Part shown: positions 2,537 through 63,573 of the stretch, piece after piece
How the letters are laid out: each line of letters starts with the position of its first letter
Position numbering within the stretch: the stretch's first letter is position 1
Assembly (NCBI GenBank): GCA_030428615.1
Contig: JAUIDN010000006.1
Location: 62,001-126,000 of the forward strand
Source: Alphaproteobacteria bacterium
GTDB lineage: Bacteria; Pseudomonadota; Alphaproteobacteria; Sphingomonadales; Emcibacteraceae
Direction of reading: 5' to 3'
Length of the DNA: 64,000 bases
Notes under the pieces: generated by a model
Database searches by the model: none
Told to the model about the DNA's origin: nothing
The model's input: the letters and a program-made list of their open reading frames with translations, nothing else
Program-made: the position numbers and the translations under genes

Positions 2537-3658
2537 TTAGCCTAATATTTCCTTGTATAAATTATAGACGTTAATTCCGGTAATCTTTTCTGCGTCATCC
2601 TCGCTTAACCCGCGCTCGAGAAGTTTATCCCAGATAACTTCCATACGCCGCGGGGAATTAAGTTCCTCGAAATAAAGCGGTACCCGCCTGATGTCGAACC
2701 GTGGGCCTTGCTCGCGCTGCATTTCCGCCAGATATTCATCCGTTACGACCAAACGGCGATGATCCCTATCCGATCCGATGCAGACATGATCAATCCCAGC
2801 CACATTAACTGCATGCATGACATGATCAAAATAAAGCTCTACCATTCCATAACGTTCAAGCGTCATAAAGGTCCTTATTTGCGTAATCCCGGCAACACCG
2901 CCCTTATCAGCAAGTTTCCGGAATACGTCATCCGGCATGCTGCGCGAGTCTTCTCTAAGCGCATCACATGCCGTATGAGAGATATGAATTGGCCTATCTG
3001 ATATTTCGATGGCATCCAGGGTTGTTTGCTCATTTGCATGGCTAAGATCAATAATCATGCCGATGTCATTGAGCTTTTCAATCAGTTTCGCACCAAAATC
3101 CGTTACGCCCGAGCCATGCTTTTCCATACAACCCGATCCGGCGTAATTTTGGTAATTGTAGGTAAGTTGACATGACCTTTGCCCAACCCCATAAAACACA
3201 TCAACATTATCAAGATCACGCATAAAATGATCCGAATTCTGCGTCAGATAAAAAATAGCCATCTTTCCTTCTGCACGCGCACGGTCAATGTCTGCTGAGG
3301 TCGTACCTTTAAGATAAAATTTTGATTTTTCATCAATATGACGGTCAAACCACAACATTTCTTCGAGCGCAGATTGAAACCCTCCTTCCACCGAAAGATT
3401 ATCCTGACGCGGATTCCCACAGGTCACTGTAATAGAACGCATTCCGGCCGCGAGCATTTCCTCAATCAATTCGTCTGTATAAGTGTCACGAATTTCACCC
3501 ATCGCATCAATGACCAAAGCGTTACGCTTCGGATCCCACGGCTTCCCAACAAGAGCCGGGGTAAAATTTGGGTCATTGCTTTGTGATAGCGCTATATTCG
3601 GCAGCGCAGCCATAAGCGGAAGCGCCGATGCGCCAATCATAAATTCACGTCTGTTCAT
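2537..3658 (-). CDS. Tat-exported M19 (membrane dipeptidase)-like protein A, altered metal site
   Basis: 373 residues. The N-terminus NRREFM followed by a hydrophobic stretch and Ala-Leu-Ser is a twin-arginine signal. The rest follows the M19 renal-dipeptidase fold order: first strand motif (51-55), Q140 region, LTY (about 167), DLSH (H207), ISHT (H228) and GSD (295-297). M19 enzymes cleave dipeptides with two zinc ions. Here the first HxD ligand pair reads Met53-x-Glu55, the bridging Glu reads Gln140 and the substrate-side His of LTH is Tyr, while H207, H228 and D297 remain. The activity may therefore be changed or lost. It lies 3 nt after paralogue B, so the two are translationally coupled, and both are divergent from the amine oxidase array. 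Confidence 0.8.
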   Translation of the reverse strand: MNRREFMIGASALPLMAALPNIALSQSNDPNFTPALVGKPWDPKRNALVIDAMGEIRDTYTDELIEEMLAAGMRSITVTCGNPRQDNLSVEGGFQSALEEMLWFDRHIDEKSKFYLKGTTSADIDRARAEGKMAIFYLTQNSDHFMRDLDNVDVFYGVGQRSCQLTYNYQNYAGSGCMEKHGSGVTDFGAKLIEKLNDIGMIIDLSHANEQTTLDAIEISDRPIHISHTACDALREDSRSMPDDVFRKLADKGGVAGITQIRTFMTLERYGMVELYFDHVMHAVNVAGIDHVCIGSDRDHRRLVVTDEYLAEMQREQGPRFDIRRVPLYFEELNSPRRMEVIWDKLLERGLSEDDAEKITGINVYNLYKEILG

Positions 3659-3661
3659 TAT

Positions 3662-4735
3662 TTACCCTATTATTTTTTCATAAAGATTATAGACATTCTG
3701 ACCCATCACTTTTTCAAGTTGCCCTTCGGAAAGTCCGCGGTTTTTAAGATTATCCCAAATCACTTCCATTCGACGCGGTCCGTTTAGATCCTCAAAATAA
3801 AGCGGGTATTCTTCCGCATTAATATGGCCTTCCTCCGCAATAAGTTCAGCGATATATTCTTCCGTCATCGTAAGTCTGCGGTGATCACGGTCAGAACCGA
3901 TACAAACATGATCAATACCACACACATCAATTGCATGCATGATGTGATCATAATAAAATTGCGAATTCTGGTCCTTGGTCATAAACCCACGCATTTGTGT
4001 GATTCCGACAAGTCCGTCTTTTTCTGCAAGGCGGCGCAATATCCTGTCCGGCATATTACGTGGATGATTAAATAAATCCTTGCAGCATGTATGGGAAATA
4101 ATAATTGGTTCTTTGGACGCATTAATCGTATCAAGCGTTGTCGCCTCATTTGAATGACTAGTGTCAACGAGCATACCTATATCATTCATTTTTTCCACCA
4201 GCTCATGGCCAAATGTTGTAAGGCCGGAACCATTTATTTCCATACAGCCGGCTCCCGCCCAGTTTTGATAATTATATGTTATCTGGCTTGAACGCAGACC
4301 CATGTCATAAAAAACATCAACGTTATCAAGATTACGCATAAAATGTGTTGAATTCTGTGTCAGGTAAAATACTGCTATTTTGCCCTGCTCACGCGCCTTT
4401 GCGATATCTTTAACCGTTGTGGTGCGCATATAATATTGCGGCTTACTATCCAGAAAACGGTTATAATATAAAAGTCCCTCCATCGTGTCATTATAGGCCT
4501 TTTGCCCCTGCACTTTCGGATCTACAAGCGTCACACAAATAGAACGAATACCACTCGCAAGCATTTCTTCGACAAGACTATCTTCATATACATCACGAAG
4601 TTCACCCATGGCATCAAATATAAGCGTTTTACCATTCCAAGGCGTGCCTGTAGCTTCTGCAAACGAAATATTCGGCAAACCTGCCAAAAGCGGCATTGCC
4701 GCGGCCCCTGCCAGAAATTGTCTCCTGTCAATCAT
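3662..4735 (-). CDS. Tat-exported M19 (membrane dipeptidase)-like protein B, altered metal site
   Basis: 357 residues from the ATG at 4735, chosen because GGGAG sits just upstream and the Tat motif DRRQFL then falls at the very N-terminus; an ATG 45 bases higher lacks this. It is a paralogue of the next gene over the whole length and shares the same substitutions: DAMGE in place of the metal-binding D-G-H-N-D type motif, Gln in place of the bridging Glu (LTQN), and LTH changed to ITY. The two later histidines (TSH and ISHT) and GSD are retained. The conservation of identical changes in two copies argues for a distinct subfamily rather than decay. First gene of the two-gene unit; its 5' region is shared with amine oxidase 1. 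Confidence 0.8.
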   Translation of the reverse strand: MIDRRQFLAGAAAMPLLAGLPNISFAEATGTPWNGKTLIFDAMGELRDVYEDSLVEEMLASGIRSICVTLVDPKVQGQKAYNDTMEGLLYYNRFLDSKPQYYMRTTTVKDIAKAREQGKIAVFYLTQNSTHFMRNLDNVDVFYDMGLRSSQITYNYQNWAGAGCMEINGSGLTTFGHELVEKMNDIGMLVDTSHSNEATTLDTINASKEPIIISHTCCKDLFNHPRNMPDRILRRLAEKDGLVGITQMRGFMTKDQNSQFYYDHIMHAIDVCGIDHVCIGSDRDHRRLTMTEEYIAELIAEEGHINAEEYPLYFEDLNGPRRMEVIWDNLKNRGLSEGQLEKVMGQNVYNLYEKIIG

Positions 4736-4921
4736 TGCGATCTCCCATTTTGTTATTGGTATTATTTTAATCGACAACATATCAGACGACCATCAAAGAT
4801 AACAAGCAGAATTCAATTATAATTTGACTCATACTGATCATTTAATGCTATTATTTCATCATACTAAAAATAAAATAACAGTGCGGGACTTCAGACAAAA
4901 TATTGACATGGAGCAAGACAA

Positions 4922-6508
4922 ATGACCGACCCAAACAAAAATAACCTTACAAAACGCGATTTTTTACAAACCCTTGGTATGATTGGTGGTTCAGCAGCTG
5001 TAATGACCGCACTTTCAGGATTTGAACATAGCCTCGCATCCGATATGACCGCACCACCAGATCTGGCCACTTCAGGAAATGGTAAGAAAATCATTATTCT
5101 GGGTTCTGGCATGTCGGGCATGGTTTCAGCGCTTGAACTTGGAAAAAAAGGATATGACATTGAGGTTCTTGAGGCACGGGACTTCGCAGGTGGTCGTAAT
5201 TCCTGCTCCCGCAAGGGGACCAAAGTAACCCACGCTGACGGAACAACGCATGTATGTGATTTTGATCATGACCAATATTTAAACCATGGTGCTTGGCGTA
5301 TCCCGGGACAACATCATTCAACACTTCATTATGCGCGGTCACTTGGTGTTCCGCTCGAAGTAATGCTTAATCACAGCACGCAAAGCTATTTATACAGTGA
5401 GGACATTGAAGGTCCGCTAAACGGAAAGCGTGTAAGACGAATTCACGCTGAAACAGACCGGCTTGGGAATGTCGCAGAACTCCTTGCCAAATGCGCCAGT
5501 GGCGGTGCCCTTGATGATATGATGGCCAGGGAAGATGTGGAAAAGCTTCTCGAATATCTGCGTAGTATGGGACTTATCAATAACGAAACATTTGAATATC
5601 AGGCAAACAGCGTTCGCGGTTACGCTTCCTATCCGGGCGCAGGCGAAAACTACGGAACATTGTCAGAACCATACCCATTCAGCGATCTTTTGAATCTAAA
5701 TATGGAAACACGGGAACTTACGGCTGATCACCCGACCACGATGTTCCAGGCCGTCGGCGGGATGGATCAAATTGCCTTCGCAATTCGTGATGCAATCCCC
5801 GCGGGCACAATCAAGCTGAACAAAGAAGTTACAAAAATATCGCAATCTGAAAACGGTGTGGTCATTAGTTATAAAGACACCAAGACGGGTGAACAGACAA
5901 CAACGACAGGTGACTACTGTATTTCGACAATTCCTTTTGCCGTTGTCACGGAAATTGAAAACGATTTTTCACCAGCAATGATTGACGCCATGAAAACCCC
6001 TGCTCCAAGTCACGTGGCAAAATTCGGTCTTCAGATGACCCGGCGTTTCTGGGAACAGGATGATATGATCTATGGCGGCAATTCATCAACCAGCATGGCT
6101 GGCTCTATCGCATATCCGTCATCCGACCTGCACGGAACACAAGGTGGCGTGCTTCTGGCTTCCTATTTATTTGGTGGTAGGGCCGATGATTTCAGCAAAT
6201 TGAACATGGATCAAAAAATTGAAAATGCACTTTCCATCGGTGAAAAAGTACACCCGGGTAATTATCGGAAGCATTTCAATGGCAAGGCCGCTGGTATCGT
6301 CTGGCATGATGAAAAATATAATAAATCCGGTTGGTCAAGTTGGCGTGGTGACAGCATAAAAAAACTACCAACCATTTTGAAGGGTGAACGTCGCGTTCTA
6401 TTTAGCGGCGACTGTATTTGTCCGCGTCTTTCCGGGTGGCTAGCAGGAGCCATTGAAGGAGCTTGGCTAACCATGCAGGAAGTTGACAAGCGAGTCGGCA
6501 TGGGTTGA
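4922..6508 (+). CDS. Exported FAD-dependent amine oxidase 1 of 5
   Basis: 528 residues. The N-terminus has a Tat-like signal with Lys-Arg in place of the Arg pair (TKRDFL at 10-15) and a hydrophobic segment to about residue 40. The Rossmann FAD site follows (GSGMSG at 61-66, acidic E84, GGR at 90-92), then a substrate domain and the flavin-contacting region FQAVGGMD. The C-terminal block ends in GW-GAIEGAW. The usual AGE-H-T motif near the end reads SGD here. This is the flavin monoamine oxidase / L-amino-acid oxidase family, which makes imine, H2O2 and ammonia; the substrate cannot be read from sequence. GGAG lies about 10 nt before the ATG, and a strong terminator at 6532-6563 separates it from copy 2. 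Confidence 0.85.
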   Translation: MTDPNKNNLTKRDFLQTLGMIGGSAAVMTALSGFEHSLASDMTAPPDLATSGNGKKIIILGSGMSGMVSALELGKKGYDIEVLEARDFAGGRNSCSRKGTKVTHADGTTHVCDFDHDQYLNHGAWRIPGQHHSTLHYARSLGVPLEVMLNHSTQSYLYSEDIEGPLNGKRVRRIHAETDRLGNVAELLAKCASGGALDDMMAREDVEKLLEYLRSMGLINNETFEYQANSVRGYASYPGAGENYGTLSEPYPFSDLLNLNMETRELTADHPTTMFQAVGGMDQIAFAIRDAIPAGTIKLNKEVTKISQSENGVVISYKDTKTGEQTTTTGDYCISTIPFAVVTEIENDFSPAMIDAMKTPAPSHVAKFGLQMTRRFWEQDDMIYGGNSSTSMAGSIAYPSSDLHGTQGGVLLASYLFGGRADDFSKLNMDQKIENALSIGEKVHPGNYRKHFNGKAAGIVWHDEKYNKSGWSSWRGDSIKKLPTILKGERRVLFSGDCICPRLSGWLAGAIEGAWLTMQEVDKRVGMG

Positions 6509-6531
6509 CCCATTAACCACAAAAAAATGAT

Positions 6532-6563
6532 AAAAGGCCCCGTTTTAAGCGGGGCCTTTTTTT
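6532..6563 (+). terminator. Strong intrinsic terminator after amine oxidase 1
   Basis: AAAAGGCCCCG (6532-6542) and CGGGGCCTTTT (6550-6560) form an 11-bp perfect stem with a 7-nt loop, followed by a run of seven T (6557-6563). It should end transcription from copy 1, which implies that copy 2 and the following copies have their own promoter in 6564-6661. Confidence 0.93.
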
Positions 6564-6661
6564 ATGATTATAGCATATTGTTATATTATATCGTATATGT
6601 TATGAAATCCTTATTAACTATATGGGAAAAAATTACGAGAAAATATACGGGACAATGTATA

Positions 6662-8266
6662 ATGACTGATCAATTGAATGATTTCGCGGGCATAAGCAAA
6701 CGGGACTTTTTACAAAAATTGGGCATGATTGGCGGCTCCGCCGCTCTATATACCGCAATGCAGGGGCTGGAAATAGTGCATGCATCGGCGATGAGTGCAC
6801 CTCCTGCCCTTTCAACCGATGGAACCGGAAAAAAAGTGATCATTCTTGGGGCAGGACTTTCGGGGCTCGTCACTTCCCTTGAACTTACAAAAAAAGGGTA
6901 TGACTGCGAAATAATAGAGGCACGTGCTTTTGCTGGTGGTCGCTGTCAATCCGCAAGAAAAGGCAAAGTCATTCAGGAGCTTGGCGGTGAACGTCAGGTA
7001 TGTAATTTCGAACACGGGCAGTATCTTAATATTGGCCCGTGGCGTATTCCTGCTGAACATAAGGCGGTTATCCACTATTGTCGCGAATTGGATGTGGCGC
7101 TTGAGCCAATGATCAATAAATCGGTACATGCGTACTATTATAGTGAAAACATTGACAGCTCACTTAAGGGAAAGCGCCTGCGCCAGGTGGAAATTGATGT
7201 TGATCGTGCCGGAAATGTGAGTGAACTTCTTGCAAAAGCCGCAAATAACGGTGCATTGGACGATACGTTTAATGCCGAAGACAAAGAAAGACTGCTCGAA
7301 TATCTGACATCCACCGGTCTTCTTGATCGGGAAGAACTGACCTACCGCGCCAATCGTGCACGCGGCTACGAAAGTTATCCCGGCACCGCACTTGATGCAG
7401 GCAACCTTTCCATTCCATATGATTTTGCAGAAGTTCTAAAATTAAAACTGGGAACTCGCTGGGCGACAGCAGACCACCCGGCCGTTATGTTCCAGGCTGT
7501 CGGTGGCATGGATCAAATTCCAATGGCAATGAAAAACGCGATAAAGCCCGGCACTATATCATATAACTCAGAAGTCATAAAAATTCAGCAATCCGATGAC
7601 AATGTGACGATTACCGTGATGAATACAGAATCCGGTGACATCAACACGGTAACAGCCGATTATATAATCTCCACAATTCCTTTTTCCGTCCTGAGTAGCA
7701 TTGAAAATGATTTCAGCGCCGAAATAAAAGATGCGTTGAAATCTGCCACGAGCTCACCTGCATACAAAATTGGCCTTCAGATGACCCGTCGTTTCTGGGA
7801 AGAAGATGATATGATTTACGGTGGCGCGTCCTATTCCGATATTGAAGATCACTATCAGACAAGCTACCCATCATCCAATCTATTTGGAAAGCATGGTGAT
7901 GTAATGCTCGCCAATTATAAATTCGGTGGCGGCAGCGTAGAGCTCTCAAATCATACAATTGCGGAACGCATCCAACATGCGCTTATGTGCGGCGAAAAAC
8001 TGCACCCTGGAAATTTCCGAAAACATTATAACGGCAATGCAATTTCCATGTCATGGCATAAGGATAAATATTCATTGGGTGGTGCATCCAGTTTCCGCAG
8101 CAATCGTCTTCGGCGCAAGCATATCCCAACGATTATCAAGGGGGAAAAACGCGTTATCTTCTCCGGTGGTGGTGTATCACCGTACCATAGCGCATGGATG
8201 ACGGGTGCAATCGAGGGCGCCTGGAACATGATGAAAGAATTCGACAAACGTGTCGCGCAAACATAA
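6662..8266 (+). CDS. Exported FAD-dependent amine oxidase 2 of 5
   Basis: 534 residues from the ATG at 6662. A start further upstream at 6527 would begin before the terminator hairpin and place about 45 odd residues ahead of the signal, so it is rejected. The same order as the other copies is visible: Tat-like SKRDFL signal with Lys-Arg, cleavage region near HASA, Rossmann GAGLSG, GGRC, FQAVGGMD, the long insert with RRFWEEDDMIYGG, and the C-terminal SGGG ... W-GAIEGAW block. No strong ribosome site is visible (GGGAC 10-13 nt upstream). Its leader around the ATG closely resembles that of copy 3, pointing to recent duplication. Predicted reaction: oxidation of an amine or amino acid outside the cytoplasm with H2O2 release. 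Confidence 0.85.
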   Translation: MTDQLNDFAGISKRDFLQKLGMIGGSAALYTAMQGLEIVHASAMSAPPALSTDGTGKKVIILGAGLSGLVTSLELTKKGYDCEIIEARAFAGGRCQSARKGKVIQELGGERQVCNFEHGQYLNIGPWRIPAEHKAVIHYCRELDVALEPMINKSVHAYYYSENIDSSLKGKRLRQVEIDVDRAGNVSELLAKAANNGALDDTFNAEDKERLLEYLTSTGLLDREELTYRANRARGYESYPGTALDAGNLSIPYDFAEVLKLKLGTRWATADHPAVMFQAVGGMDQIPMAMKNAIKPGTISYNSEVIKIQQSDDNVTITVMNTESGDINTVTADYIISTIPFSVLSSIENDFSAEIKDALKSATSSPAYKIGLQMTRRFWEEDDMIYGGASYSDIEDHYQTSYPSSNLFGKHGDVMLANYKFGGGSVELSNHTIAERIQHALMCGEKLHPGNFRKHYNGNAISMSWHKDKYSLGGASSFRSNRLRRKHIPTIIKGEKRVIFSGGGVSPYHSAWMTGAIEGAWNMMKEFDKRVAQT

Positions 8267-8360
8267 CGAAGAAATAATGGCGAGTCCGGTAATAACATGT
8301 CCGGTTTTCTGCATTATCCGAACACATTTTTTTAAAATATATTGATACTGGACAGATATA

Positions 8361-9953
8361 ATGACTGATAAATTTGATGATTTAAGTAAACGTGATTTCC
8401 TGCAAGCTATTGGTATTCTTGGGGGGTCCGCCGCAATGTTAAGTGCCATGGGTGCTTTTGACAAATCCATTGCTTCTGACATGACAGAACCGCCCGAAAT
8501 GCACACTGACGGAACGGGAAAAAAAATAGTGATCCTTGGTGCAGGACTCGCAGGCATGGTTCTCGGACTGGAATTAAGCAAAAAAGGATATGAAGTTGAA
8601 ATTCTGGAAGCTCGTTCATTCGCCGGCGGCCGCTGTCAGACTTCACGCAAAGGCACCGTTATTCATGAAATTGGTGGCGAGCGTCAGGTCTGCGATTTTG
8701 ATAATAACCAGTATGTAAACCACGGTCCCTGGCGCATTGCACAGGAACATCATTCTGTATTGCATTATTGTCACTCACTCAATGTTGAACTTCAGCCAAT
8801 GATCAATCAGAGCGCACAGACCTATATATATTCAGAACAGGCGGAAGGCGCTCTTAAGGGAAAAAGGATCCGTCATGTTCATGCAGAAATTGACCGTCAC
8901 GGAAATATCTTTGAACTGCTGGCAAAATGCGCATCTGATGGCTCACTTGACGATAAAATGAATGCCGAAGATCGCGACCGTCTTCTGGAACACCTCAAAG
9001 CAACAGGACTGATTGACCGTAAGGAACTTAATTATGTCGCAGGACGCGCCCGGGGGTTTGAAAGCTATCCCGGAGCGGCGATGAATTTTGGCAAGTTTTC
9101 CGAACCATATGATTTTTCTGAGCTCTTAAAAGTACGCGTCGGCACTCGCTATGATACTGCAGATCATCCGGCCGTCATGTTTCAACCGATCGGCGGCATG
9201 GACATGATTGCAAAGGGATTATTTAATGCGCTTCCAAAAGGAATGGTTAAATTCAATAAGGAAGTCACAAATATTTTACAAACCGATAGTGGCGCTGTCA
9301 TATCTTACTTCGATACGGAGACTGGCGCGGAGACAAGAGCAACAGGTGACTATTGTATCTCCACCATTCCATTCTCGGTTCTGACCACAATCGACAACGA
9401 TTTCGCAGACGACATGATTACGGCGCTTAAAAGCCCGCGCAGCGCACCTGCTTACAAAATAGGGTTGCAGTTTGACCGCCGTTTCTGGGAAAAAGATGAA
9501 ATGATTTATGGTGGTGTCACACAAACGGACATCCCCGGCAACAGGATAATTTCGTATCCTTCCAACGATCTTCACAGTCCACATGGCGGTGTCCTTCTCG
9601 CAGACTATGAATTTGGGGCCCAAGCCGTTCAAAATAGTAATCTTTCAAATGCAGAACGTATCGAACAGGCGTTATCAGCGGGGGAAAAAGTCCACCCGGG
9701 CCACTACCGAAAACATTATAACGGAAAAGCCATGTCCATGGCCTGGCATAAGGAAAAATACTCCCTCGCCGGATGGGTCGGATGGTCGGCCCGCGGTCGT
9801 GTACGTCAACTCCCCACCATCTTAAAAGGTGAACGAAGAGTGCTGTTTTCCGGTAACGGCATCAGCCCAATTCTTGACGGTTGGCAGGCCGGTGCCATTG
9901 AAGGTGCCTGGTATACGATGCAGGATCTGGACAAACGGATCGCGCAGAGCTAA
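8361..9953 (+). CDS. Exported FAD-dependent amine oxidase 3 of 5
   Basis: 530 residues. SKRDFL Tat-like signal, GAGLAG Rossmann motif, GGRC, YVNHGPWRIA, FQPIGGMD, FDRRFWEKDEMIYGG and SGNG near the C-terminus align with the other four copies along the full length. In copies 2-5, but not copy 1, the stretch before the GxWRIx motif contains GGERQVC or GERQVC. The gap from copy 2 is 94 nt with only a weak inverted repeat (CCGG arms), so read-through from copy 2 is possible. GGACAG lies about 8 nt before the ATG. Family-level function is secure; the substrate is unknown. Confidence 0.85.
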   Translation: MTDKFDDLSKRDFLQAIGILGGSAAMLSAMGAFDKSIASDMTEPPEMHTDGTGKKIVILGAGLAGMVLGLELSKKGYEVEILEARSFAGGRCQTSRKGTVIHEIGGERQVCDFDNNQYVNHGPWRIAQEHHSVLHYCHSLNVELQPMINQSAQTYIYSEQAEGALKGKRIRHVHAEIDRHGNIFELLAKCASDGSLDDKMNAEDRDRLLEHLKATGLIDRKELNYVAGRARGFESYPGAAMNFGKFSEPYDFSELLKVRVGTRYDTADHPAVMFQPIGGMDMIAKGLFNALPKGMVKFNKEVTNILQTDSGAVISYFDTETGAETRATGDYCISTIPFSVLTTIDNDFADDMITALKSPRSAPAYKIGLQFDRRFWEKDEMIYGGVTQTDIPGNRIISYPSNDLHSPHGGVLLADYEFGAQAVQNSNLSNAERIEQALSAGEKVHPGHYRKHYNGKAMSMAWHKEKYSLAGWVGWSARGRVRQLPTILKGERRVLFSGNGISPILDGWQAGAIEGAWYTMQDLDKRIAQS

Positions 9954-10016
9954 CACGACACTTGCAATGTTATAACAATCCCTTAATATGATTTTAAACG
10001 ATTAGGGGATTACATT

Positions 10017-11612
10017 ATGACACAAGAGAACAACAATACTGATTTTACCAAACGCGATTTTCTAACCCGCATCGGCATGGTTGCCGGCACCTCTGCCATG
10101 ATGACGGCGCTTGCTGGATGGGACATGTCAATGGCATCAACTATGACTGCTCCACCTGCAATGTCGTCCGATGGCAAGGGTAAAAAAATTCTGATCCTTG
10201 GCGCGGGCCTGTCCGGCCTTGTCTGCGCACTCGAACTTTCAACAAAAGGCTATGACATACAGGTTTTGGAAGCCAAGGAAACGGCGGGCGGCAGATGCAT
10301 GTCTGCACGCAAGGGTACCGTGATCGAAGACGTCGGTGGCGAACGCCAAGTTTGCGACTTTGAAAATAATCAGTACCTGAACGTTGGCCCGTGGCGCATC
10401 CCGCCGCAACATCATTCAACCTTATATTATTGCCGTACACTTGGCGTGGCGTTGGAACCATTTATCAATAAATCGTTTGATGCCTATTATTATCAAAGTA
10501 ATGGTGATGGGCCACTGTGCGGCAAGCCAATTCGTCAGTTTGAAATTGATATGGACCGTACCGGACATGTGGACGAACTGCTGGCAAAATGTATTACCGG
10601 CGGCGCGCTGGAGGATAAACTGACCAAAGAAGATCAAGAAGCATTACTTGATTACTTAAAATCAACCGGTTTGATCGACCGCACTGAGCTTGATTACCAC
10701 GCAAACAGGGTTCGCGGATGGGAAAAAATGCCAACCGTTGGCACTGATAAAGGTAAGCTGTCCGACCCATATGGATTAGCCGATTTATTGAAAATGAAAT
10801 TGGGCAGAAGAAATCCGGATTCAGAGCACACACCCGCTTTATTTCAACCTGTCGGTGGAATGGACCAGATACCACGTGCGCTGGAACGGGCACTGCCAAA
10901 CGGGATCATCCGCTTCAATTCGGAAATTACAGATATTATTCAATCCGACGATGGCGTTTCTGTTACAGTTACAGAAACAAAAACCAACAAAACGGAAATT
11001 TTGCAAGCTGACTACGCGATTTCGTGCCTTCCATTTCCGTTGCTCAATAAGATCAATACCGATTTCAGACAAGATGTTATCGACGGGCTTAAAGCGCCCT
11101 CCTCCGCACCGATTGTCAAGCTGGGGCATCAATTTTCCGAACGGTTCTGGGAAACACAGGAAAATATTTTTGGCGGCATAACCGTGAATGATATTGATGA
11201 AAGTGGTAATATAAGCTACCCGTCATCGGAATTATTTAATGGAAAAACCGGTGTTGTTCTTACAGCTTATGCTCATCGGGGTGGCGCCATTAAACTCGGG
11301 AACCGGAGTATCGCAGAGCGTATTGAACGTGGCCTTGAGATTGGTGAAATGGTCCATCCCGGACGTTTTAGGAAATATTTCAACGGCAAAGCCATTTCCA
11401 TGGCCTGGCATAAACAAAAATATAATCTTGCAGCATGGGTGGCGTGGTCACGGCGCAATATCGACAGCAAAATGCCGGCTTTGGTAAAGGGCGAAAAACG
11501 CGTGCTATTCAGTGGCAATGGTATGGCACCATACCATCAGGGCTGGATGTTCGCTGCTATTGAGGCCGCATGGAATTCCATTGGGGATCTGGATAAACGA
11601 ATTAACATGTAA
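10017..11612 (+). CDS. Exported FAD-dependent amine oxidase 4 of 5
   Basis: 531 residues with AGGGGA 9-10 nt before the ATG, the clearest ribosome site of the array after copy 1. TKRDFL Tat-like signal, GAGLSG Rossmann motif, GGRC, VGPWRIP, FQPVGGMD and SGNG are present. It is the most diverged copy in the middle and C-terminal parts: FQ-PVGG is kept, but the helix after RRFW reads ERFWETQENIFGG and the segment normally STIPF reads SCLPFP, so its substrate pocket may differ. 63 nt separate it from copy 3 with no terminator seen, consistent with a polycistronic message for copies 2-5. Confidence 0.85.
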   Translation: MTQENNNTDFTKRDFLTRIGMVAGTSAMMTALAGWDMSMASTMTAPPAMSSDGKGKKILILGAGLSGLVCALELSTKGYDIQVLEAKETAGGRCMSARKGTVIEDVGGERQVCDFENNQYLNVGPWRIPPQHHSTLYYCRTLGVALEPFINKSFDAYYYQSNGDGPLCGKPIRQFEIDMDRTGHVDELLAKCITGGALEDKLTKEDQEALLDYLKSTGLIDRTELDYHANRVRGWEKMPTVGTDKGKLSDPYGLADLLKMKLGRRNPDSEHTPALFQPVGGMDQIPRALERALPNGIIRFNSEITDIIQSDDGVSVTVTETKTNKTEILQADYAISCLPFPLLNKINTDFRQDVIDGLKAPSSAPIVKLGHQFSERFWETQENIFGGITVNDIDESGNISYPSSELFNGKTGVVLTAYAHRGGAIKLGNRSIAERIERGLEIGEMVHPGRFRKYFNGKAISMAWHKQKYNLAAWVAWSRRNIDSKMPALVKGEKRVLFSGNGMAPYHQGWMFAAIEAAWNSIGDLDKRINM

Positions 11613-11691
11613 TGATTTATAATGGCTGGGGTGGTCTTTTAAATTCGACTCAGTTAATGTGCTGTACAGATGTATAAAACCGGGGCACAAA

Positions 11692-13302
11692 ATGATTATA
11701 AAAGATAATTCGATAACTGAAATTCAGATCAGTAAACGTCAACTTCTAAAATCTATCGGTATGGTTGGCGGATCAACCGCTGTCTTTGCCGCCATGCAGG
11801 GTTGGGATATCGCGGGCGCAACCGAACCGAAAAAAGCGCCGCCGGAAATTGCATCAGACGGCCATGGAAAAAAAATAATCATTCTTGGAGCTGGTCTCTC
11901 CGGTATGGTTGCTGCTTTAGAATTATCAAAAAAGGGTTATGAATGCCAAATCCTGGAAGCCGATGATAAAATTGGGGGGCGCTGTCAATCTGCACGTAAA
12001 GGAAGTGTCATTCACGAAATTGAAGGGGAACGACAGGTTTGCGATTACGATGCAGGACAATATTTCAATTATGGTCCATGGCGAATTCCCGCACAGCACC
12101 ACCCAACATTACATTATTGCCATACTCTTGGTGTGGCACTCGAGCCGTTAATCAACAAATCGCCAATGGCTTATTATCTTGGGAATAATATTGAAGGGCC
12201 GCTAAAGGGAAAAAGGCTTCGCCAGGGCGATGTTGATTTTGACCGCCAGGGTCACATTGCTGAACTTCTCGCCAAGTGCGCGGATCAAGGCAGACTTGAT
12301 GACATGGTCTCGGTCGAAGACCGCGAGCTTCTTCTGGAATATCTTAGAAATCAGGGACTTATCGACCGACGTGAACTCGACTATAAGCCAAATCGTGCGC
12401 GCGGCTGGAAATATTATCCCGGTGCCGGTGAAGATTTTGGCGAATATGCCGATATTTACAAGCTCACCGACCTATTTAAAATGAAAGTGGGTACCCACCT
12501 AGAAAATGAAGATCATCCGATCGTTATGTTCCAATCGGTTGGCGGCATGGATAGAATTGCCCACGCCCTTTATAATGCACTGCCGAAAGGGATTGTTCAA
12601 TTAAACAAGGAAGTCACAAACATCCGCCAAACAGATGACGGCGTATCAATTAAGTATAAAGATACCAAATCCGGCAATGAAATGACCGCAACGGGCGATT
12701 ATTGCATTTCGACCATTCAGTTTCCCGTTGTTTCAAAAATTGAGAATAATTTCAACACAGACCTTCAAAATGCATTGAAGGCACCAGCTGGCTCCCCTGC
12801 TTTTAAGCAGGGATTGCAGTTCAATCGGCGATTCTGGGAGCAGGACGATATGATTTACGGCGGAAACTCAATGACCGACATTCCCGGGCATTCGGTCACC
12901 GCTTATCCGTCGTCCGATCTTCATAGTAACGGCCCGGGGGTAGTTCTTGGTTCCTACATCTGGGGTGGTGAAGCGGCTCGACTTAGCAATTTAAGTGTCA
13001 AGGATCGGGTGGAATTCGCCCTCAGCGTCGGCGAAAAGCTCCACCCCGGAAACTTCCGTCATCACTTTAACGGAAAAGCTATGACAATCGGCTGGCATAG
13101 AATGCAATATCATCTGGGCGGATGGGTTACATGGACACGCCGCAAACGTCAACGGCAACTTCCTGTCATTCTAAAGGGTGAAAACAGGGTTCTTTTCTCT
13201 GGAAACGGTATCGCAACCATCCAAAATGGTTGGATGGTCGGTGCTATTGAAGCTGCATGGCTTACGATCAGTGAACTTGATAAACGCGTCAGTCAGAGTT
13301 AA
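11692..13302 (+). CDS. Exported FAD-dependent amine oxidase 5 of 5
   Basis: 536 residues from the ATG at 11692 (GGGG about 7 nt upstream); an upstream in-frame start at 11659 adds 11 residues without a ribosome site. The signal is SKRQLLKSIG, again Lys-Arg, with Leu in place of Phe. Rossmann GAGLSG, GGRC, YGPWRIP, FQSVGGMD, NRRFWEQDDMIYGG and SGNG are conserved. The stop codon TAA is followed directly by the ATG of the small membrane protein at 13303, so that gene is probably translated with this one. Last oxidase of the array. Confidence 0.85.
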   Translation: MIIKDNSITEIQISKRQLLKSIGMVGGSTAVFAAMQGWDIAGATEPKKAPPEIASDGHGKKIIILGAGLSGMVAALELSKKGYECQILEADDKIGGRCQSARKGSVIHEIEGERQVCDYDAGQYFNYGPWRIPAQHHPTLHYCHTLGVALEPLINKSPMAYYLGNNIEGPLKGKRLRQGDVDFDRQGHIAELLAKCADQGRLDDMVSVEDRELLLEYLRNQGLIDRRELDYKPNRARGWKYYPGAGEDFGEYADIYKLTDLFKMKVGTHLENEDHPIVMFQSVGGMDRIAHALYNALPKGIVQLNKEVTNIRQTDDGVSIKYKDTKSGNEMTATGDYCISTIQFPVVSKIENNFNTDLQNALKAPAGSPAFKQGLQFNRRFWEQDDMIYGGNSMTDIPGHSVTAYPSSDLHSNGPGVVLGSYIWGGEAARLSNLSVKDRVEFALSVGEKLHPGNFRHHFNGKAMTIGWHRMQYHLGGWVTWTRRKRQRQLPVILKGENRVLFSGNGIATIQNGWMVGAIEAAWLTISELDKRVSQS

Positions 13303-14965: not shown

Positions 14966-16129
14966 ATGAAACATTATAATAATAATCCAACCTATCAGAA
15001 CACAGATCACATACTTAATCCCAGATTATTCGATAATGCTTATGAAAGCATTAGTGGCTGGCCTGATTATACGCCGTCGTCGCTACAATCGCTCCCCTGC
15101 CTTGCCGCGGAATTTGGCATTGGGCAAATTTATTACAAGGATGAAAGCGAGCGGTTTGGCCTTAAAAGCTTCAAATCGCTTGGCGGTGCCTACGCGGTAA
15201 TTCAAGTACTCACTGAACATCTGCGTGTTATATTGAGCGACAATAGCATCACAGGAGTGGACATCAAGTCCGGAAAATATCGCGACCTTTTAAAGGGATT
15301 TACGGTGGCAACCGCCACGGATGGCAATCATGGGCGCTCTGTCGCCTGGGGAGCGCAACAGTGCGGCATAAAGTGCAAAATCTATATGCACAAGGGCGTA
15401 AGCCAAAGCCGTGCTATCGCTGTTGAGCTTCTCGGGGCGGAAGTTATATGGGTTGACGGTAATTATGACGACAGCCTTAGCAAGGTGAAACGCGACTCCA
15501 TCGAAAATGAGTGGCACATTATTTCAGATACCTCCTATGAAGGTTATACCTATATCCCTAAATTTGTAATGGCTGGCTATACGGTCATGACAAAAGAAAT
15601 TATGGGTCAGTTAAAAGATGACCAGATACCTACCCATATCATAATACAAGGAGGTGTCGGGGGACTTGCCGGCGCCATCTGCGCGCACGCGGCAATGATT
15701 TGGGGCGAAAGACGGCCAAAATTTATTGTGGTTGAGCCGGAAACCGCTGACTGCCTTTATCAAAGTGCGAAACTGGGGGAACCTAAATTGGTTCATATTG
15801 AAAAAGAAACCTTGATGGGGGGGCTCTCCTGCGGTGAAGTATCCATAATCGGGTGGGGAATATTAAAGAATAATGCCGATCATTTTATCACCATTTCAGA
15901 TGATAACGTAAAATCAGCGATGCGCGTCATGGCATTGGGCGTTGGCACAGACCCATCAATTGAAGCGGGTGAAAGTGCTGTAGCAGGGGTCGCTATGCTC
16001 ATGGAATTAAGAGACCATCCGGAAATTAAATCCGAGCTAGGGCTTGACGAAAATTCCCGCGTACTTCTTTTCGGAACCGAGGGAGCAACAGACCCGCAAC
16101 TCTATGACGAAATTGTTTCCGGGGGCTAA
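14966..16129 (+). CDS. dpaL: Diaminopropionate ammonia-lyase (PLP enzyme)
   Basis: 387 residues. It belongs to the fold-type II PLP family. The Schiff-base Lys is K70 in GLKSFKSLGG, preceded by YYKDES; the phosphate-binding loop and substrate motif TDGNHGR, the glycine loop QGGVGGLAG and the C-terminal FGTEGATD are all present and match DpaL rather than threonine deaminase. The reaction splits 2,3-diaminopropionate to pyruvate and two ammonia, with D-serine as a possible side substrate. It likely shares a transcript with the DUF924 gene and overlaps the convergent TPR gene by 4 nt at the 3' ends. It fits an amino-acid nitrogen scavenging role. Confidence 0.9.
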   Translation: MKHYNNNPTYQNTDHILNPRLFDNAYESISGWPDYTPSSLQSLPCLAAEFGIGQIYYKDESERFGLKSFKSLGGAYAVIQVLTEHLRVILSDNSITGVDIKSGKYRDLLKGFTVATATDGNHGRSVAWGAQQCGIKCKIYMHKGVSQSRAIAVELLGAEVIWVDGNYDDSLSKVKRDSIENEWHIISDTSYEGYTYIPKFVMAGYTVMTKEIMGQLKDDQIPTHIIIQGGVGGLAGAICAHAAMIWGERRPKFIVVEPETADCLYQSAKLGEPKLVHIEKETLMGGLSCGEVSIIGWGILKNNADHFITISDDNVKSAMRVMALGVGTDPSIEAGESAVAGVAMLMELRDHPEIKSELGLDENSRVLLFGTEGATDPQLYDEIVSGG

Positions 16130-17055
16130 TTCCCACCAATCATTATAAGCTCTGCTTCGGATGGCCAGAATCCTCGCGGGCCGCTGTCGGTGGTTTCGTT
16201 CCAAAGTTTAATGGCAGCGTCATTATTACCTTCAAAATGGTCTTTCATGGCAACAGTGTATTTTCCGATCACATCCGCATTTTCCAGAAATTCTTTACGG
16301 CTATAAAGCCCCTTAAGGTAATTGACCGCGCGATGATACTGGTCATTTTCAATCAGATCGGCCTCATCAGGTACTTTCTTAAGTTCATCTTGCGCTTCAC
16401 CGTGTCGTCCAAGCTTACGCAGTGCCATATATTTCCATAGTGTCACAGGTATAAGTTCTTCCATATAAGCAAACCGGACGGGGACGTTGATCGCTTCGTT
16501 CATTCCTTCCAAAACCATTTTATAATCCCCCGTTGCCATGCTGGTTTGCCCCAGATAATATGGGATATTCTGTTTAAATGTTGATATGGTTAAGTCAAGC
16601 GCATTGGCAATACCGTTTGGCTCATAGCTATCCGGTTGATCCTTCAGAAGCTCTCCCGCTTTTTTATAATCGGCAATTGCCTGATCCCATTGATAATTCC
16701 GCGCCAGATGGCGACCACGATAACGGTATAATTTATAACTGTCGGGAAATTTTTTAAGACCTTCTGAGAAAACCTGTATCGCTTCCGGTAACCGACCAAG
16801 GTACCCATAGCGGCGCCCCAACCAAGCATAACTATCCTCGCGTTCCGGCGCAACGTCCATCAGTGCCTTGGCTATCTCGAGATCCTTTTCCAAGCGTGTC
16901 TGGGTATCAGGGCTAAACTTTGTTTCCCTGAAGGCACGTCCCGTTGGTGTGTGTGTCATCGCGAAAGCAGCTTTAACCACACCGTCATGGTTTTCCGCCT
17001 GTGTTTTCAGGGTAAAGGATAAAGTTAAAATGAACAAAACAGCAAAAAAGCGCAT
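16126..17055 (-). CDS. Exported TPR-repeat protein (paralogue 1)
   Basis: 309 residues from the ATG at 17055, which has AGGGGAG 5 nt upstream and begins a clear Sec signal peptide (hydrophobic core, cleavage near TQA-EN). The body holds several tetratricopeptide-like helix pairs (for example EREDSYAWLGRRYGYLG, then AIQVFSEGLKKFPDS, then the YRGRHLARNYQWDQA pair). It is a full-length paralogue of the gene upstream (17085-18041), 29 nt apart, so a duplicated periplasmic protein pair in one unit. Role unknown. Confidence 0.75.
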   Translation of the reverse strand: MRFFAVLFILTLSFTLKTQAENHDGVVKAAFAMTHTPTGRAFRETKFSPDTQTRLEKDLEIAKALMDVAPEREDSYAWLGRRYGYLGRLPEAIQVFSEGLKKFPDSYKLYRYRGRHLARNYQWDQAIADYKKAGELLKDQPDSYEPNGIANALDLTISTFKQNIPYYLGQTSMATGDYKMVLEGMNEAINVPVRFAYMEELIPVTLWKYMALRKLGRHGEAQDELKKVPDEADLIENDQYHRAVNYLKGLYSRKEFLENADVIGKYTVAMKDHFEGNNDAAIKLWNETTDSGPRGFWPSEAELIMIGGN

Positions 17056-17084
17056 TTGTGCTCCCCTTAAGGTAAAAATTAATC

Positions 17085-18041
17085 TCATTTAAGATTTAGC
17101 AGTTCTACTTCCGCCAGCCAATATCCCTTGTGATTATCATTGGTGACGGTGGTAAATACCTTTTTTGCGGCGTCGTCATTACCGTTAAAATAATCAACCA
17201 TCCCTATTGTATATAACCCAATGCTGTCGGCGCGCCCCATAAACTGGTTACGGGTGTACCGTCCCTGCAGAAACTGCACCGCTTCATAATAATCCTGATT
17301 CGAAATAATGTTTAGTGTACGGGGGATCGCTTTAATCATATCTTCCGCTTCTTTATGCTGTCCCAGCTTTCTCATGGCCATATATTTATAAAGGCTCGTT
17401 GAAACAAGGAAATCATCTTGGTCAGAAAGTTCATTTACCTCTACCGCTTTATCCATATATTCAATGACGGTATCATAATCACCCGTAGCCATGCTGCTCT
17501 GTGCAAGATAATAATATATGTTCCGCTTAAAGGTACTTGGGCTAAAGTTTGACCGGCCGGGTATACCTTTCTGGCTTGGGGTTACATCAAGACTTTCAAC
17601 AAGCGCTTCTGCACGGCGCAAATCTATAATCCCTTCTTCAAATTGATAATTTCTGATCAGATGAAATCCACGATAACGATAAAGAGCATAACTTTCCGGG
17701 AATAATTCAAGGCCTTCTGTAAATATCTCAATTGCTTTGGCATAATTGCCCAAAAACCCTTCTCGACGCCCGCGCCAGCTATATGAGCTTTCTTTAAGTG
17801 GAGCTGATGCAAAAACCGAATTTGCCGTCGCCAGATCCCCGTCGAACCATTTTTTGCTGAACTGGTTAAATTCTTTGTCACGAAAGACAACCCCAGAAGG
17901 TGTTGATGTCACGGCGTAAGCCGCCAATACAACCGGATTATCTGAAACTTTGGTTTCCGAAGTTGTATTTACCTGCGCATACCCCCCTGCTGTGCTTCCA
18001 AATATCAGTCCAATTACCACAGGCAAAATCAAAGCACGCAT
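17085..18041 (-). CDS. Exported TPR-repeat protein (paralogue 2)
   Basis: 318 residues from the ATG at 18041 (AAGGAAA upstream), giving a Sec signal peptide that ends near GYAQ. The frame is open much further upstream but that part overlaps the divergent gene and has no ribosome site. The TPR-like repeats align with those of the downstream paralogue: SYSWRGRREGFLG, YAKAIEIFTEGLELFPES, YRGFHLIRNYQ, SSMATGDYDTV, KYMAMRKLGQH. First gene of the pair; 133 nt separates it from the divergent ArsC/phosphatase-like gene. Confidence 0.75.
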   Translation of the reverse strand: MRALILPVVIGLIFGSTAGGYAQVNTTSETKVSDNPVVLAAYAVTSTPSGVVFRDKEFNQFSKKWFDGDLATANSVFASAPLKESSYSWRGRREGFLGNYAKAIEIFTEGLELFPESYALYRYRGFHLIRNYQFEEGIIDLRRAEALVESLDVTPSQKGIPGRSNFSPSTFKRNIYYYLAQSSMATGDYDTVIEYMDKAVEVNELSDQDDFLVSTSLYKYMAMRKLGQHKEAEDMIKAIPRTLNIISNQDYYEAVQFLQGRYTRNQFMGRADSIGLYTIGMVDYFNGNDDAAKKVFTTVTNDNHKGYWLAEVELLNLK

Positions 18042-18174
18042 AAAATTTCCTTTTATATTATTTTCTGTTGCATCATAGTGGTGCATATTGTCGCGATGAT
18101 AAAGTGTAAGTGACAAAAATAGTATTAAAAAATCCGAAATTTTCATGTCGAAATAATAAAGGATCTCCATAATA

Positions 18175-18633
18175 GTGAAAATATTATATCTTAGCACTAA
18201 TAACATTTGCCGAAGCATAATAGCCGAATCAATTACCAGAAAATATGCGGTCGACAATGTTAAGGGCATGAGTGGCGGCACACACCCAGGGGATGATATT
18301 CACCCGGTCGCTCACCGGATACTCAAAAATCATCATTTCAGTTCAGTAAATCTGGTCGGAAAGTCGTGGGATCTTTTTTCCAGCTGGGAACCTGACATTG
18401 TCATTACGCTATGTGATAAAGTCTTAAAAGAAAAATGTCCCACATATGTCGGAAAATCAGTTCATGTCCACTGGGGATTGCCCGACCCGACAAAACAATT
18501 CGGCAATATGGAAGAAAATTTTACCAAAATATTGACTATACTGGATGAACGTATAACAAAGATGCTTGAAGTCGATCTTGAATCGCTGAGCAAAGAAGAA
18601 CTTCGAGCACATCTTAAAAAGGTTGCCCAATGA
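18175..18633 (+). CDS. ArsC / low-molecular-weight tyrosine phosphatase-like protein with Ser in place of the nucleophilic Cys
   Basis: 152 residues, GTG start with AAAGGA about 10 nt upstream. The N-terminal P-loop that normally reads C-T-x-N-x-C-R-S reads STNNICRS here, so the nucleophilic Cys is Ser while the rest of the loop is intact. The ArsC-type region further on (ITLC, KCP about 8 residues later, and the VHWGLPDP acid-loop region) is conserved, including two cysteines in the place of the redox shuttle pair. Thioredoxin-coupled ArsC proteins reduce arsenate using three cysteines, and phosphatase relatives need the first one. Catalysis by the known route is therefore unlikely. It overlaps the next gene by 4 nt. 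Confidence 0.75.
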   Translation: MKILYLSTNNICRSIIAESITRKYAVDNVKGMSGGTHPGDDIHPVAHRILKNHHFSSVNLVGKSWDLFSSWEPDIVITLCDKVLKEKCPTYVGKSVHVHWGLPDPTKQFGNMEENFTKILTILDERITKMLEVDLESLSKEELRAHLKKVAQ

Positions 18634-29623: not shown

Positions 29624-30655
29624 CTAACCATTTCTGAAGGTATACCCATACCCGTTAATTGCTGGCACGCCACCAAGATGGGCGTATAAAATTTTTGACC
29701 CTTTCTTAAAATACCCCTTTTTCACCAGATCCATCATTCCCTGCATTGATTTTCCTTCATAAACCGGGTCAGTCATCATCCCTTCAAGCCGTGCACAAGT
29801 TCTGATCGCCTCTTTTGTTTCTTCTGATGGCACACCATAATAAGGATAAGCATAATCTTCATGCAGAACAATATCCTCTTCTGTAATGTCCTGCTCAAGC
29901 TCAACGAGCTTTGCCGTGTTTAGCGCAATTTCAAGTACCTGTTCTTTTGTTTGCTGCGGTGTCCCGCTCGCGTCAATGCCAATCACGTTTCGTGCCCGCC
30001 CGTCGGCCGCAAACCCAACAAGCATCCCCGCATGCGTTGACCCCGTCACCGTACAAACAACAATATAATCAAACTTGACGCCCATTTCCTCTTCCTGGGC
30101 GCGCACCTCTTCTGCAAAGCCGACAAATCCAAGGCCACCATATTTATGCACGGATGCCCCAGCCGGGATTGGGTATGGTTTACCCCCTTTATCTTCCACA
30201 TCCTTTATTGCGTTCTCCCAGCTTTCACGAATGCCTATATCAAATCCTTCATCGACCAGTTCCACGTCGGCCCCCATCACCCGGGATAGAAGAATATTAC
30301 CCACACGATCATATACAGCGTCTTCATGTGGTACCCAGCTTTCCTGCACTAGTCGGCATTTAAACCCAATTTTTGCCGCCGTCGCCGCAACAAGGCGTGT
30401 ATGATTTGATTGAACCCCACCGATGGAAACAAGCGTATCCGCACCTGATGCAATGGCATCCGGTACAATATATTCAAGTTTGCGTAATTTATTGCCCCCA
30501 AATGCGAGGCCGGAATTGCAATCTTCACGCTTTGCGTAAATTTCAACATCACCGCCGAGGTGATCACTTAGAGCATTTAATTTCTCAATCGGTGTTGGTC
30601 CAAATGTTAACGGATATTTTTCAAATTTATCAAGTCTGGTAAGGTTTTTTGCCAT
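29624..30655 (-). CDS. acdS: 1-aminocyclopropane-1-carboxylate deaminase
   Basis: 343 residues. A PLP enzyme with Schiff-base Lys K56 in GGNKLRK. The two residues that separate true ACC deaminases from the closely related D-cysteine desulfhydrases are both of the deaminase type: Glu300 (DPVYEGKS) and Leu327 (AHLGG), offset by 5 from the usual E295 and L322. The reaction opens ACC to 2-oxobutyrate and ammonia. In plant- or alga-associated bacteria this lowers host ethylene and supplies nitrogen; in a marine cell a nitrogen role is likely. The Lrp-type regulator is divergent, the usual acdR-acdS arrangement. Confidence 0.92.
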
Positions 30656-62229: not shown

Positions 62230-62464
62230 GCCCTCCATTTTAAAAATTAAAGCTAAATTCGGCAGTGTTCTTAATGCTGTAAAATTGCTGTGATATTTTT
62301 ATTCGTTCAACCCAATAATCACAAAATTCGATTTTTTCCTTTAATTCCCACCGTAACAATGATTAGATAGTTTCAACAATAATCGTGATAAAAAGTCCTA
62401 AACACAGATCATTAAATCGCCGATGACAACCATCGAGCCAACATTAAAAAAAGAGGAAGAAATA
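62230..62464. other. Leader region of the RidA gene pair
   Basis: About 235 bases between small RNA candidate B and the RidA start. AT-rich up to about 62400; the frame of the RidA gene is open back to 62423 but without a better start. A promoter for the RidA - RidA - DksA unit is expected here; none is clear. Confidence 0.35.
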
Positions 62465-63010
62465 ATGAAAAGAAGAAGTTTTTTTGCAGCCGCCGGTTTA
62501 AGCGCACTTGCCGTCAATATGATATCAAGCAAAGCAACCGCACAAATGGGCGGAAAAATTGATGCCAAACTGGCAGAACTTGGTGTTGAAGTGGCGGCCG
62601 CCGATGCGCCGGTTGCCGCTTATGTCGGATGGCGTAAAGTTGGTAATATGGTCTACATCGCCGGACAGGTTCCCCGCGACGAAAATGGCCCGATTGTCGG
62701 TAAACTTGGCGCCAACATGACTACAGAACAAGGGTATGCCGCCGCCCGCGCTTGTGGTGTTTCAATATTAAGTCAACTAAAGGCTGCCTGTGACGGTAAT
62801 CTAGACCGGGTCGTGAAATGCGTACAAATTCAGGGGCTTGTAAATTCAACGGATGACTTCACGGAACAGCATCTGGTCGTAAACGGTACATCGGAACTTT
62901 TCAGGGACATCTGGGGTGAACCGGGGCTTGCCGCTCGTGCAGCCGTCGGTACCAATAGTCTGCCACTGGGGATCGCCTGCGAGGTTCTCGCTGTATTTGA
63001 GGTAGCATAA
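62465..63010 (+). CDS. Tat-exported RidA-family protein
   Basis: 181 residues from the ATG at 62465 (GAGGAAG upstream), so that KRRSFFAAAGL forms a twin-arginine signal with cleavage after TATA. The RidA-like domain (about 45-180) has KVGNMVYIAGQVPRDENG, the Leu-rich GVSILSQLKAACDGNLDRVVKCVQIQGLV and a C-terminal AARAAVGTNSLPLGIACEVLAVFE. The Arg in ARAAVG is in the position of the catalytic Arg that hydrolyses 2-imino acids in RidA. Export from the cytoplasm is unusual for this family. The next gene starts on the last base of its stop. Confidence 0.85.
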   Translation: MKRRSFFAAAGLSALAVNMISSKATAQMGGKIDAKLAELGVEVAAADAPVAAYVGWRKVGNMVYIAGQVPRDENGPIVGKLGANMTTEQGYAAARACGVSILSQLKAACDGNLDRVVKCVQIQGLVNSTDDFTEQHLVVNGTSELFRDIWGEPGLAARAAVGTNSLPLGIACEVLAVFEVA

Positions 63011-63573
63011 TGTTACGTCGCGCGTTATTTGCTGGCGCACTGGCGTCTTTACTTGCCGCCTGCGGTAAATCAGAAGACCCGGCGCCGCAAGAAAACCAAA
63101 CGACTGATACGCAGCCAACATCGCCCGCAGGGCGTATTGATGCAAAACTTGCTGAACTCGGAATTGTACTTCCGGAAGCGACAACCCCAATCGCAGCATA
63201 TACGCCAATCCGCAAGGTCGGCAATATGGTCTATATCGCGGGACAGGGTCCACAAATGACCGGCACAGTCGGCATTGAATATACCCGCAAAGACGGCTAT
63301 GAAGCCGCAAGGCAGGCAGCAATCAGCATTCTGTCTCAGCTAAAAAAGGCATGTGACGGCGATCTCGACCGTGTTGTGCAATGTGTGCAGCTCCAGGGGC
63401 TGGTGAGATCCACACCGGATTTCACCGAACAACATCTGGTTATAAACGGCGCTTCGGAACTGCTCCGTGACGTATTTGGTGAAGCGGGACTTGCCGCGCG
63501 GGCTGCTGTTGGCACCAATGCGCTACCTGTCGGTTTTGTTTGTGAAGTCATCGCCACCTTTGAGATAGCATAA
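63010..63573 (+). CDS. RidA-family lipoprotein
   Basis: 187 residues with lipobox LAAC (Cys19), then an unstructured Gln/Thr/Pro linker and a RidA-type domain that aligns with the upstream protein (KVGNMVYIAGQGPQ ... ISILSQLKKACDGDLDRVVQCVQLQGLV ... LAARAAVGTNALPVGFVCEVIATFE). It is a paralogue placed in a different compartment mode: membrane-tethered rather than free. It overlaps the upstream RidA stop by 1 nt. Imine or enamine hydrolysis in the periplasm is the inferred role. Confidence 0.85.
   Translation: MLRRALFAGALASLLAACGKSEDPAPQENQTTDTQPTSPAGRIDAKLAELGIVLPEATTPIAAYTPIRKVGNMVYIAGQGPQMTGTVGIEYTRKDGYEAARQAAISILSQLKKACDGDLDRVVQCVQLQGLVRSTPDFTEQHLVINGASELLRDVFGEAGLAARAAVGTNALPVGFVCEVIATFEIA

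Follow-up and report, generated by a model that had tools for sequence, protein, structure and literature searches.

The window, which is the whole stretch of 64,000 nucleotides that was analysed, contains five consecutive genes for predicted exported L-amino acid oxidases (LAAOs). These genes and the only terminator found among them are as follows.

4922..6508, forward strand: predicted LAAO paralogue C1, 528 aa; intact ORF with a PF01593 match; clade C1 is present in 11 genomes
6532..6560, forward strand: intrinsic terminator after C1, a hairpin; position not conserved in other species
6662..8266 (ORF from 6527), forward strand: predicted LAAO paralogue C2, 534 aa; the equivalent of Trp-426 is Ala; clade C2 is present in 9 genomes
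8361..9953, forward strand: predicted LAAO paralogue C3, 530 aa; AlphaFold model with a pLDDT of 89.1
10017..11612, forward strand: predicted LAAO paralogue C4, 531 aa; basic residue at Tyr+2, which is His here and Arg/His in the clade
11692..13302 (ORF from 11659), forward strand: predicted LAAO paralogue C5, 536 aa; Trp at Tyr+2; clade C5 is present in 3 genomes

A sequence-only reading of this stretch had described five consecutive genes of 528-536 codons with a shared signal and shared motifs, and all five genes are found intact where it had placed them. The start codons of copies 2 and 5 are the ATG codons that fit the signal common to all copies. Copies 2-5 are 48-58% identical to copy 1, and the mean column identity across the five copies in the protein alignment is 70%. 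The Pfam family Amino_oxidase (PF01593) matches all five copies with E-values of 9e-34 to 2e-44, and a search of the five copies against NCBIfam yields sub-threshold matches only, with no equivalog above its cut-off. The GxGxxG motif, the FQ(A/P/S)(V/I)GGMD block and a C-terminal block are present in each copy. The C-terminal block, which had been given as either GAIEGAW or AAIEAAW, is indeed present in all copies, but that of copy 5 is GAIEAAW, a mix of both. Chance is not an issue for these genes, because they are full-length and have orthologues in related genomes.

The gap after copy 1 is 153 nt long and contains the terminator hairpin, which consists of 13 pairs (7 G-C) and is followed by a T tail. 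The subsequent gaps are 94, 63 and 79 nt long, and no terminator is found in these gaps between copies 2-5. Thus, the terminator after copy 1 and the short gaps of 63-94 nt without a terminator are both as the earlier reading had described them. A conserved operon plan, in which copy 1 stands apart and copies 2-5 stand together, is rejected, because the terminators of other species sit at different places.

The N-termini of all five copies carry a Tat-like signal, (T/S)KR(D/Q)(F/L)L, which is followed by a hydrophobic stretch. The twin residues of this motif are K-R in every copy of the genus with an intact N-terminus, whereas 15 of 16 relatives sampled outside it have R-R. Some known Tat substrates tolerate K-R, and the genome encodes TatC. 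The array LAAOs are likely exported, as had been proposed for these flavoproteins.

The genes that flank the array are as follows.

2537..3658, reverse strand: M19a, predicted exported atypical M19-family protein; PF01244, E 1.3e-67
3662..4780, reverse strand: M19b, predicted exported atypical M19-family protein; PF01244, E 1.3e-70; divergent from C1
14401..14958, forward strand: DUF924 protein; PF06041, E 1e-63; syntenic downstream of the array
14966..16129, forward strand: PLP enzyme of the diaminopropionate ammonia-lyase family (DpaL); NF006058, 484.8 bits (cut-off 276); syntenic downstream of the array
16126..17088, reverse strand: predicted exported TPR protein; syntenic; adjoins an M19b homologue in another genus
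17085..18281, reverse strand: second predicted exported TPR protein, tandem paralogue of the first; syntenic

In both M19-family proteins of the window, the zinc-ligand motif HxD is replaced by MxE and the bridging Glu (E125) is replaced by Gln, so that three of the five canonical ligands are gone; the ligand positions (His-x-Asp, the bridging Glu and two His) are presumably those of renal dipeptidase. The HxD motif is altered in all copies of the genus, whereas a canonical M19 pair on contig C41 keeps HxD and Glu. The best PDB match of the window pair is 2i5g, annotated as 'amidohydrolase', which by eye also has Gln at the position expected for the bridging Glu. Given these substitutions, the name dipeptidase is not warranted for the window M19 pair. 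The idea that these proteins feed the oxidases as ordinary dipeptidases is weakened by the lost zinc ligands; because the M19 neighbours are not canonical dipeptidases, there is no clear supply of free amino acids from them.

Two further features of the window lie outside the array region. A 1-aminocyclopropane-1-carboxylate (ACC) deaminase (29624-30655, reverse strand; TIGR01274, 586 bits, cut-off 392) is encoded beside an Lrp-type regulator, and the combination of ACC deaminase and LAAO could suit a bacterium that lives close to plants or algae. A tandem pair of paralogous amidohydrolase-like proteins is encoded at 34251-37629 (reverse strand), which adds to the tandem pairs of M19, TPR and Rid proteins in the window.

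Enzyme family and flavin site

When the PDB is searched with a profile of the five copies, the LAAO of Rhodococcus opacus (roLAAO, 2jae) is the top match with an E-value of 2e-95, followed by ancestral and venom LAAOs, and monoamine oxidases are found far below. 2jae is also the best fold match of the AlphaFold model of copy 3, with a TM-score of 0.95 (normalised by target length), a deviation of 1.9 Å and 31% identity. The roLAAO residues Arg84 and Tyr371 contact the carboxylate of the substrate, and in the alignment their equivalents do not vary among the five window copies or among all intact copies of the genus. The fold, the nearest structure and the conserved carboxylate Arg/Tyr pair therefore point to LAAOs of the roLAAO type rather than to open-ended 'amine' oxidases. 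The sequence-only reading had left the choice between amine and amino-acid oxidases open; the copies are flavoprotein oxidoreductases as it had supposed, but the choice is narrowed by this evidence. A generic amine or monoamine oxidase is rejected, because the match to LAAO is far stronger.

The copies resemble roLAAO (2jae, 2jb1-2jb3) in fold, in the equivalents of Arg84 and Tyr371 and, in C1, C3, C4 and C5, in the equivalent of Trp426. They differ from roLAAO in that five copies lie in tandem instead of one, in that GDH is changed to GNG or GGG in C2-C5, and in that the pocket residues vary among the window copies. In snake-venom LAAO, Arg90 and Tyr372 form the corresponding substrate-binding pair (PMC7052187) and match the invariant pair found here. 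The snake-venom enzyme CrLAAO (1f8r) belongs to the same superfamily, but its identity to the copies is ~18% and its TM-score by model length is 0.64, and the venom enzymes are secreted.

The two-dinucleotide-binding fold with the GxGxxG, Glu and GGR motifs for FAD is found in all intact copies, and in the window copies the GGMD motif is conserved along with GxGxxG, GGR and the ribose Glu. At the acidic position of the C-terminal GD/GE flavin motif, C1 has Asp, C2 has Gly and C3-C5 have Asn; roLAAO and each of the 16 relatives sampled outside the genus have Glu or Asp there. Across the LAAO copies of the genus, G(E/D)H has given way to other residues (GNG or GGG in C2-C5). K366 is invariant and corresponds by eye to the conserved Lys near flavin N5. 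Frameshifts or loss of FAD residues had been named as signs of decay; the window copies show no frameshift, but four of them have lost one acid of the FAD site. The five copies are thus assigned, from sequence and model, to the roLAAO-type LAAO family, with a flavin site that is changed in C2-C5.

Distribution and divergence of the paralogues

The number of LAAO copies is 1-8 per genome in 12 further genomes of the genus, and the array consists of one to seven ORFs. The gene order in the genus is two divergent M19 genes, C1, C2 and so on, DUF924, the diaminopropionate ammonia-lyase homologue and the exported TPR genes, and C1 is the first array copy, adjoining the M19 genes, wherever the contig shows it. 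In a complete genome (G012), the array is present at two loci, one with C1-C2 and the M19 pair and the other with C3-C4 and the DUF924, DpaL and TPR genes. In another genome (G001, contig C55; L123, 4776-6390), the C4 orthologue (arr_6/arr_7) is split into frames of 81 and 392 aa and is decaying.

In 19 genomes that represent other genera of the same family, no roLAAO-type LAAO reaches an E-value of 1e-50. In surveys of 289 genomes of the class and 398 genomes of the phylum, which scored the top 5 or top 3 candidates of each genome, a single copy is the rule among other carriers, and no array is found. Likewise, a second LAAO is found at none of 79 LAAO loci outside the genus. The array is genus-specific and syntenic. 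The sequence-only reading had asked whether the array is conserved, and had held that it would be ordinary if the relatives were single-copy cytoplasmic enzymes of known narrow function; most relatives from other genera do have a single copy, but these enzymes appear to be exported and have no known narrow function. That reading had also known of no locus with five such copies, and a search with broad terms in a limited set of open-licence papers agrees, since it yielded no multi-LAAO array. These papers describe the enzyme and the operon with a single copy, but no old syntenic array of multiple paralogues with altered M19 partners.

The conserved neighbourhood bears on what the substrates may be. 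The oxidases might act, together with the M19 pair and the DpaL homologue, on N-terminal residues of peptides, on non-protein amino acids such as derivatives of 2,3-diaminopropionate, or on D-amino acids. This would accord with the syntenic conservation of DpaL and of the altered M19 pair and with the remodelling of the flavin motif from GEH to GNG or GGG. It would also accord with another genus, in which an M19b homologue and a TPR gene adjoin genes that, by eye, look like those of TonB receptors and an amino-acid symporter; no LAAO is encoded there. However, the Arg/Tyr pair typical of the binding of L-amino acids is invariant, and the links to DpaL and the M19 proteins are positional only. 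Such substrates are considered unlikely.

In the phylogenetic tree, each window copy belongs to a separate cross-species clade (C1 in 11, C2 in 9, C3 in 5, C4 in 6 and C5 in 3 genomes), and SH-aLRT values are 99-100 for each of these five clades. The copy of the type found in the operon on contig C32, which is described below, forms its own clade with 10 genomes. A tree constrained to unite the five window copies in one clade is rejected with a p-AU of 6e-66. Recent tandem amplification is ruled out by the tree and this AU test. Between orthologues, dN is 0.10-0.16, dS is at least 2.6 or saturated, and omega is 0.04-0.05 where it is measurable.

The copies might instead be largely redundant, as a dosage amplification that is kept by drift. 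The variation of the array from one to seven ORFs and the broken C4 copy of one species could be explained in this way, but the separate cross-species clades, the rejection of a single window clade, the strong purifying selection and the clade-specific pocket columns all argue against redundancy, which is very unlikely.

When 481 alignment columns are ranked by their ability to discriminate the six clades, the column directly after the carboxylate Tyr is the top one (L/K/E/A/I/P). Tyr+2 ranks 14th (F, Y/F, F, R/H, W, I), Tyr-1 ranks 15th, and the equivalent of Trp426 is replaced by Ala or Ser in C2. Tyr+2 aligns in our alignment with Ile374 of snake LAAO, which is part of the side-chain pocket (PMC7052187). 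Pocket positions are taken from the sequence alignment and not from distances in the model, and the clustering of clade-specific columns near the Tyr, which was recognised after ranking, is post hoc and suggestive only. Because the copies form their own cross-species clades, are under purifying selection and have clade-specific residues beside the Tyr, the duplications are old and the paralogues long-diverged on the evidence of their sequences, and specialisation of the copies for different side chains is likely. A specialised set, as had been proposed, thus accounts for these genes better than recent amplification does, and the clade-specific pocket residues are compatible with the proposal that each copy is tuned to a different substrate. 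With an active-site wall that seems to be conserved separately in each copy, the array has the look of an old toolkit for different amino acids. On this view, C4 would favour polar or acidic side chains and C2 would favour bulky ones.

Operon linkage to cytochrome c and the putative role of the array

Two more LAAO homologues are encoded in the same genome, on contigs C1 and C32. That on contig C32 (L120, 9094-12402) is followed by genes for a c-type cytochrome and two Rid proteins, each of which carries an export signal similar to that of the LAAO. The same order, LAAO, cytochrome c and one or two Rids, is found at 10 of 10 loci of the genus (contig C32 and nine others). At the 79 loci outside the genus, a cytochrome gene is present at 36 (35 from Pseudomonadota and 1 unclassified), a Rid gene at 43 and both at 21; the loci of Bacillota have LAAO and Rid without the cytochrome. 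The LAAO copy on contig C1 (L119, 6484-10443) lies, by eye, directly downstream of a TonB-dependent-receptor-like gene and adjoins apparent mobilisation/relaxase genes.

Neither a cytochrome c gene nor a Rid gene is found beside the five array copies. An exported Rid pair is encoded ~49 kb from the array, at 62.4-63.6 kb of the window.

62423..63010, forward strand: predicted exported Rid-family protein; Tat-like signal; PF14588, E 5.5e-16
63010..63573, forward strand: second predicted exported Rid-family protein; lipoprotein-like signal; PF14588, E 4e-19

The Arg of the R-(S/A/T) motif, which presumably corresponds to RidA Arg105, is conserved in the LAAO-linked Rids and in the window Rids. 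RidA hydrolyses imines made by LAAO (PMC4433059), and the window Rid pair is a possible imine-handling partner of the array in trans.

The arrangement on contig C32, an LAAO with a Tat-type signal, a c-type cytochrome and a Rid, is that of the lao-cccA-ridA cluster of Gluconacetobacter diazotrophicus, which is needed for the formation of indole-3-acetic acid (PMC5053998). The array differs from that cluster in that its copies lack the cytochrome and Rid genes and are flanked by the altered M19 proteins and the DpaL-like enzyme. In Chlamydomonas, a periplasmic LAAO is likewise encoded beside a RidA gene and extracellular amino acids serve as nitrogen source, but one LAO1 gene with LAO2 (Rid) is reported and no paralogue array (PMC10805672).

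The release of H2O2 by the array copies, which the earlier reading had assumed, is one option but not the favoured one. The copies might produce H2O2 against competitors, with several copies giving a wider or stronger output. Marine bacteria are described as having antimicrobial amino acid oxidases (PMC4699246), which belong broadly to the same enzyme family, and the Lys near flavin N5 appears by eye to be kept (K366). However, the coupling of the genus orthologue to a c-type cytochrome at 10 of 10 loci points to respiration, the Tat-like signals suggest the periplasm rather than secretion to the medium, and old, selected differences in the pocket are not needed for the output of peroxide. A role in attack on competitors is quite unlikely. 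Because of the coupling to cytochrome c, a role as respiratory dehydrogenases is at least as likely as the release of H2O2, and the electrons may pass to respiration via cytochrome c.

The favoured reading, to which we assign a probability of roughly 0.6, is that these genes encode an old family of exported roLAAO-type L-amino acid oxidases or dehydrogenases that is specific to the genus. Each LAAO would be folded with FAD and then exported by Tat. In the periplasm, the enzyme would oxidise an L-amino acid by accepting a hydride from its alpha-carbon, and the imino acid would be hydrolysed to a keto acid and ammonia, possibly aided by the exported Rid proteins. The flavin would be re-oxidised by O2, by a periplasmic c-type cytochrome that is encoded on contig C32 and would serve the array copies in trans, or by both. 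With varied pocket walls, the five copies of the array and the two elsewhere would widen the range of side chains, and the cell would gain nitrogen, keto acids and respiratory electrons without first importing each amino acid. The loss of the FAD-site acid in C2-C5, the K-R signal, the lack of a cytochrome or Rid gene in the array and the M19 neighbours, from which no clear supply of free amino acids is expected, are points against this favoured reading. A further proposal, that six or more LAAO-type dehydrogenases of ancient separation, divided by substrate class and sharing one cytochrome c and the exported Rids, form a toolkit for periplasmic amino-acid respiration as a main feeding mode, is conceivable but doubtful.

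If the copies differ in substrate, they would represent a natural series in which the active-site wall of one fold is varied beside a fixed catalytic core, and this series would be useful for learning and engineering the specificity of LAAOs. On the same condition, periplasmic deamination would be seen to be coupled to respiration at a scale that is not described for single lao operons, and ammonia and keto acids, including indole-3-pyruvate, would possibly be released to neighbours.
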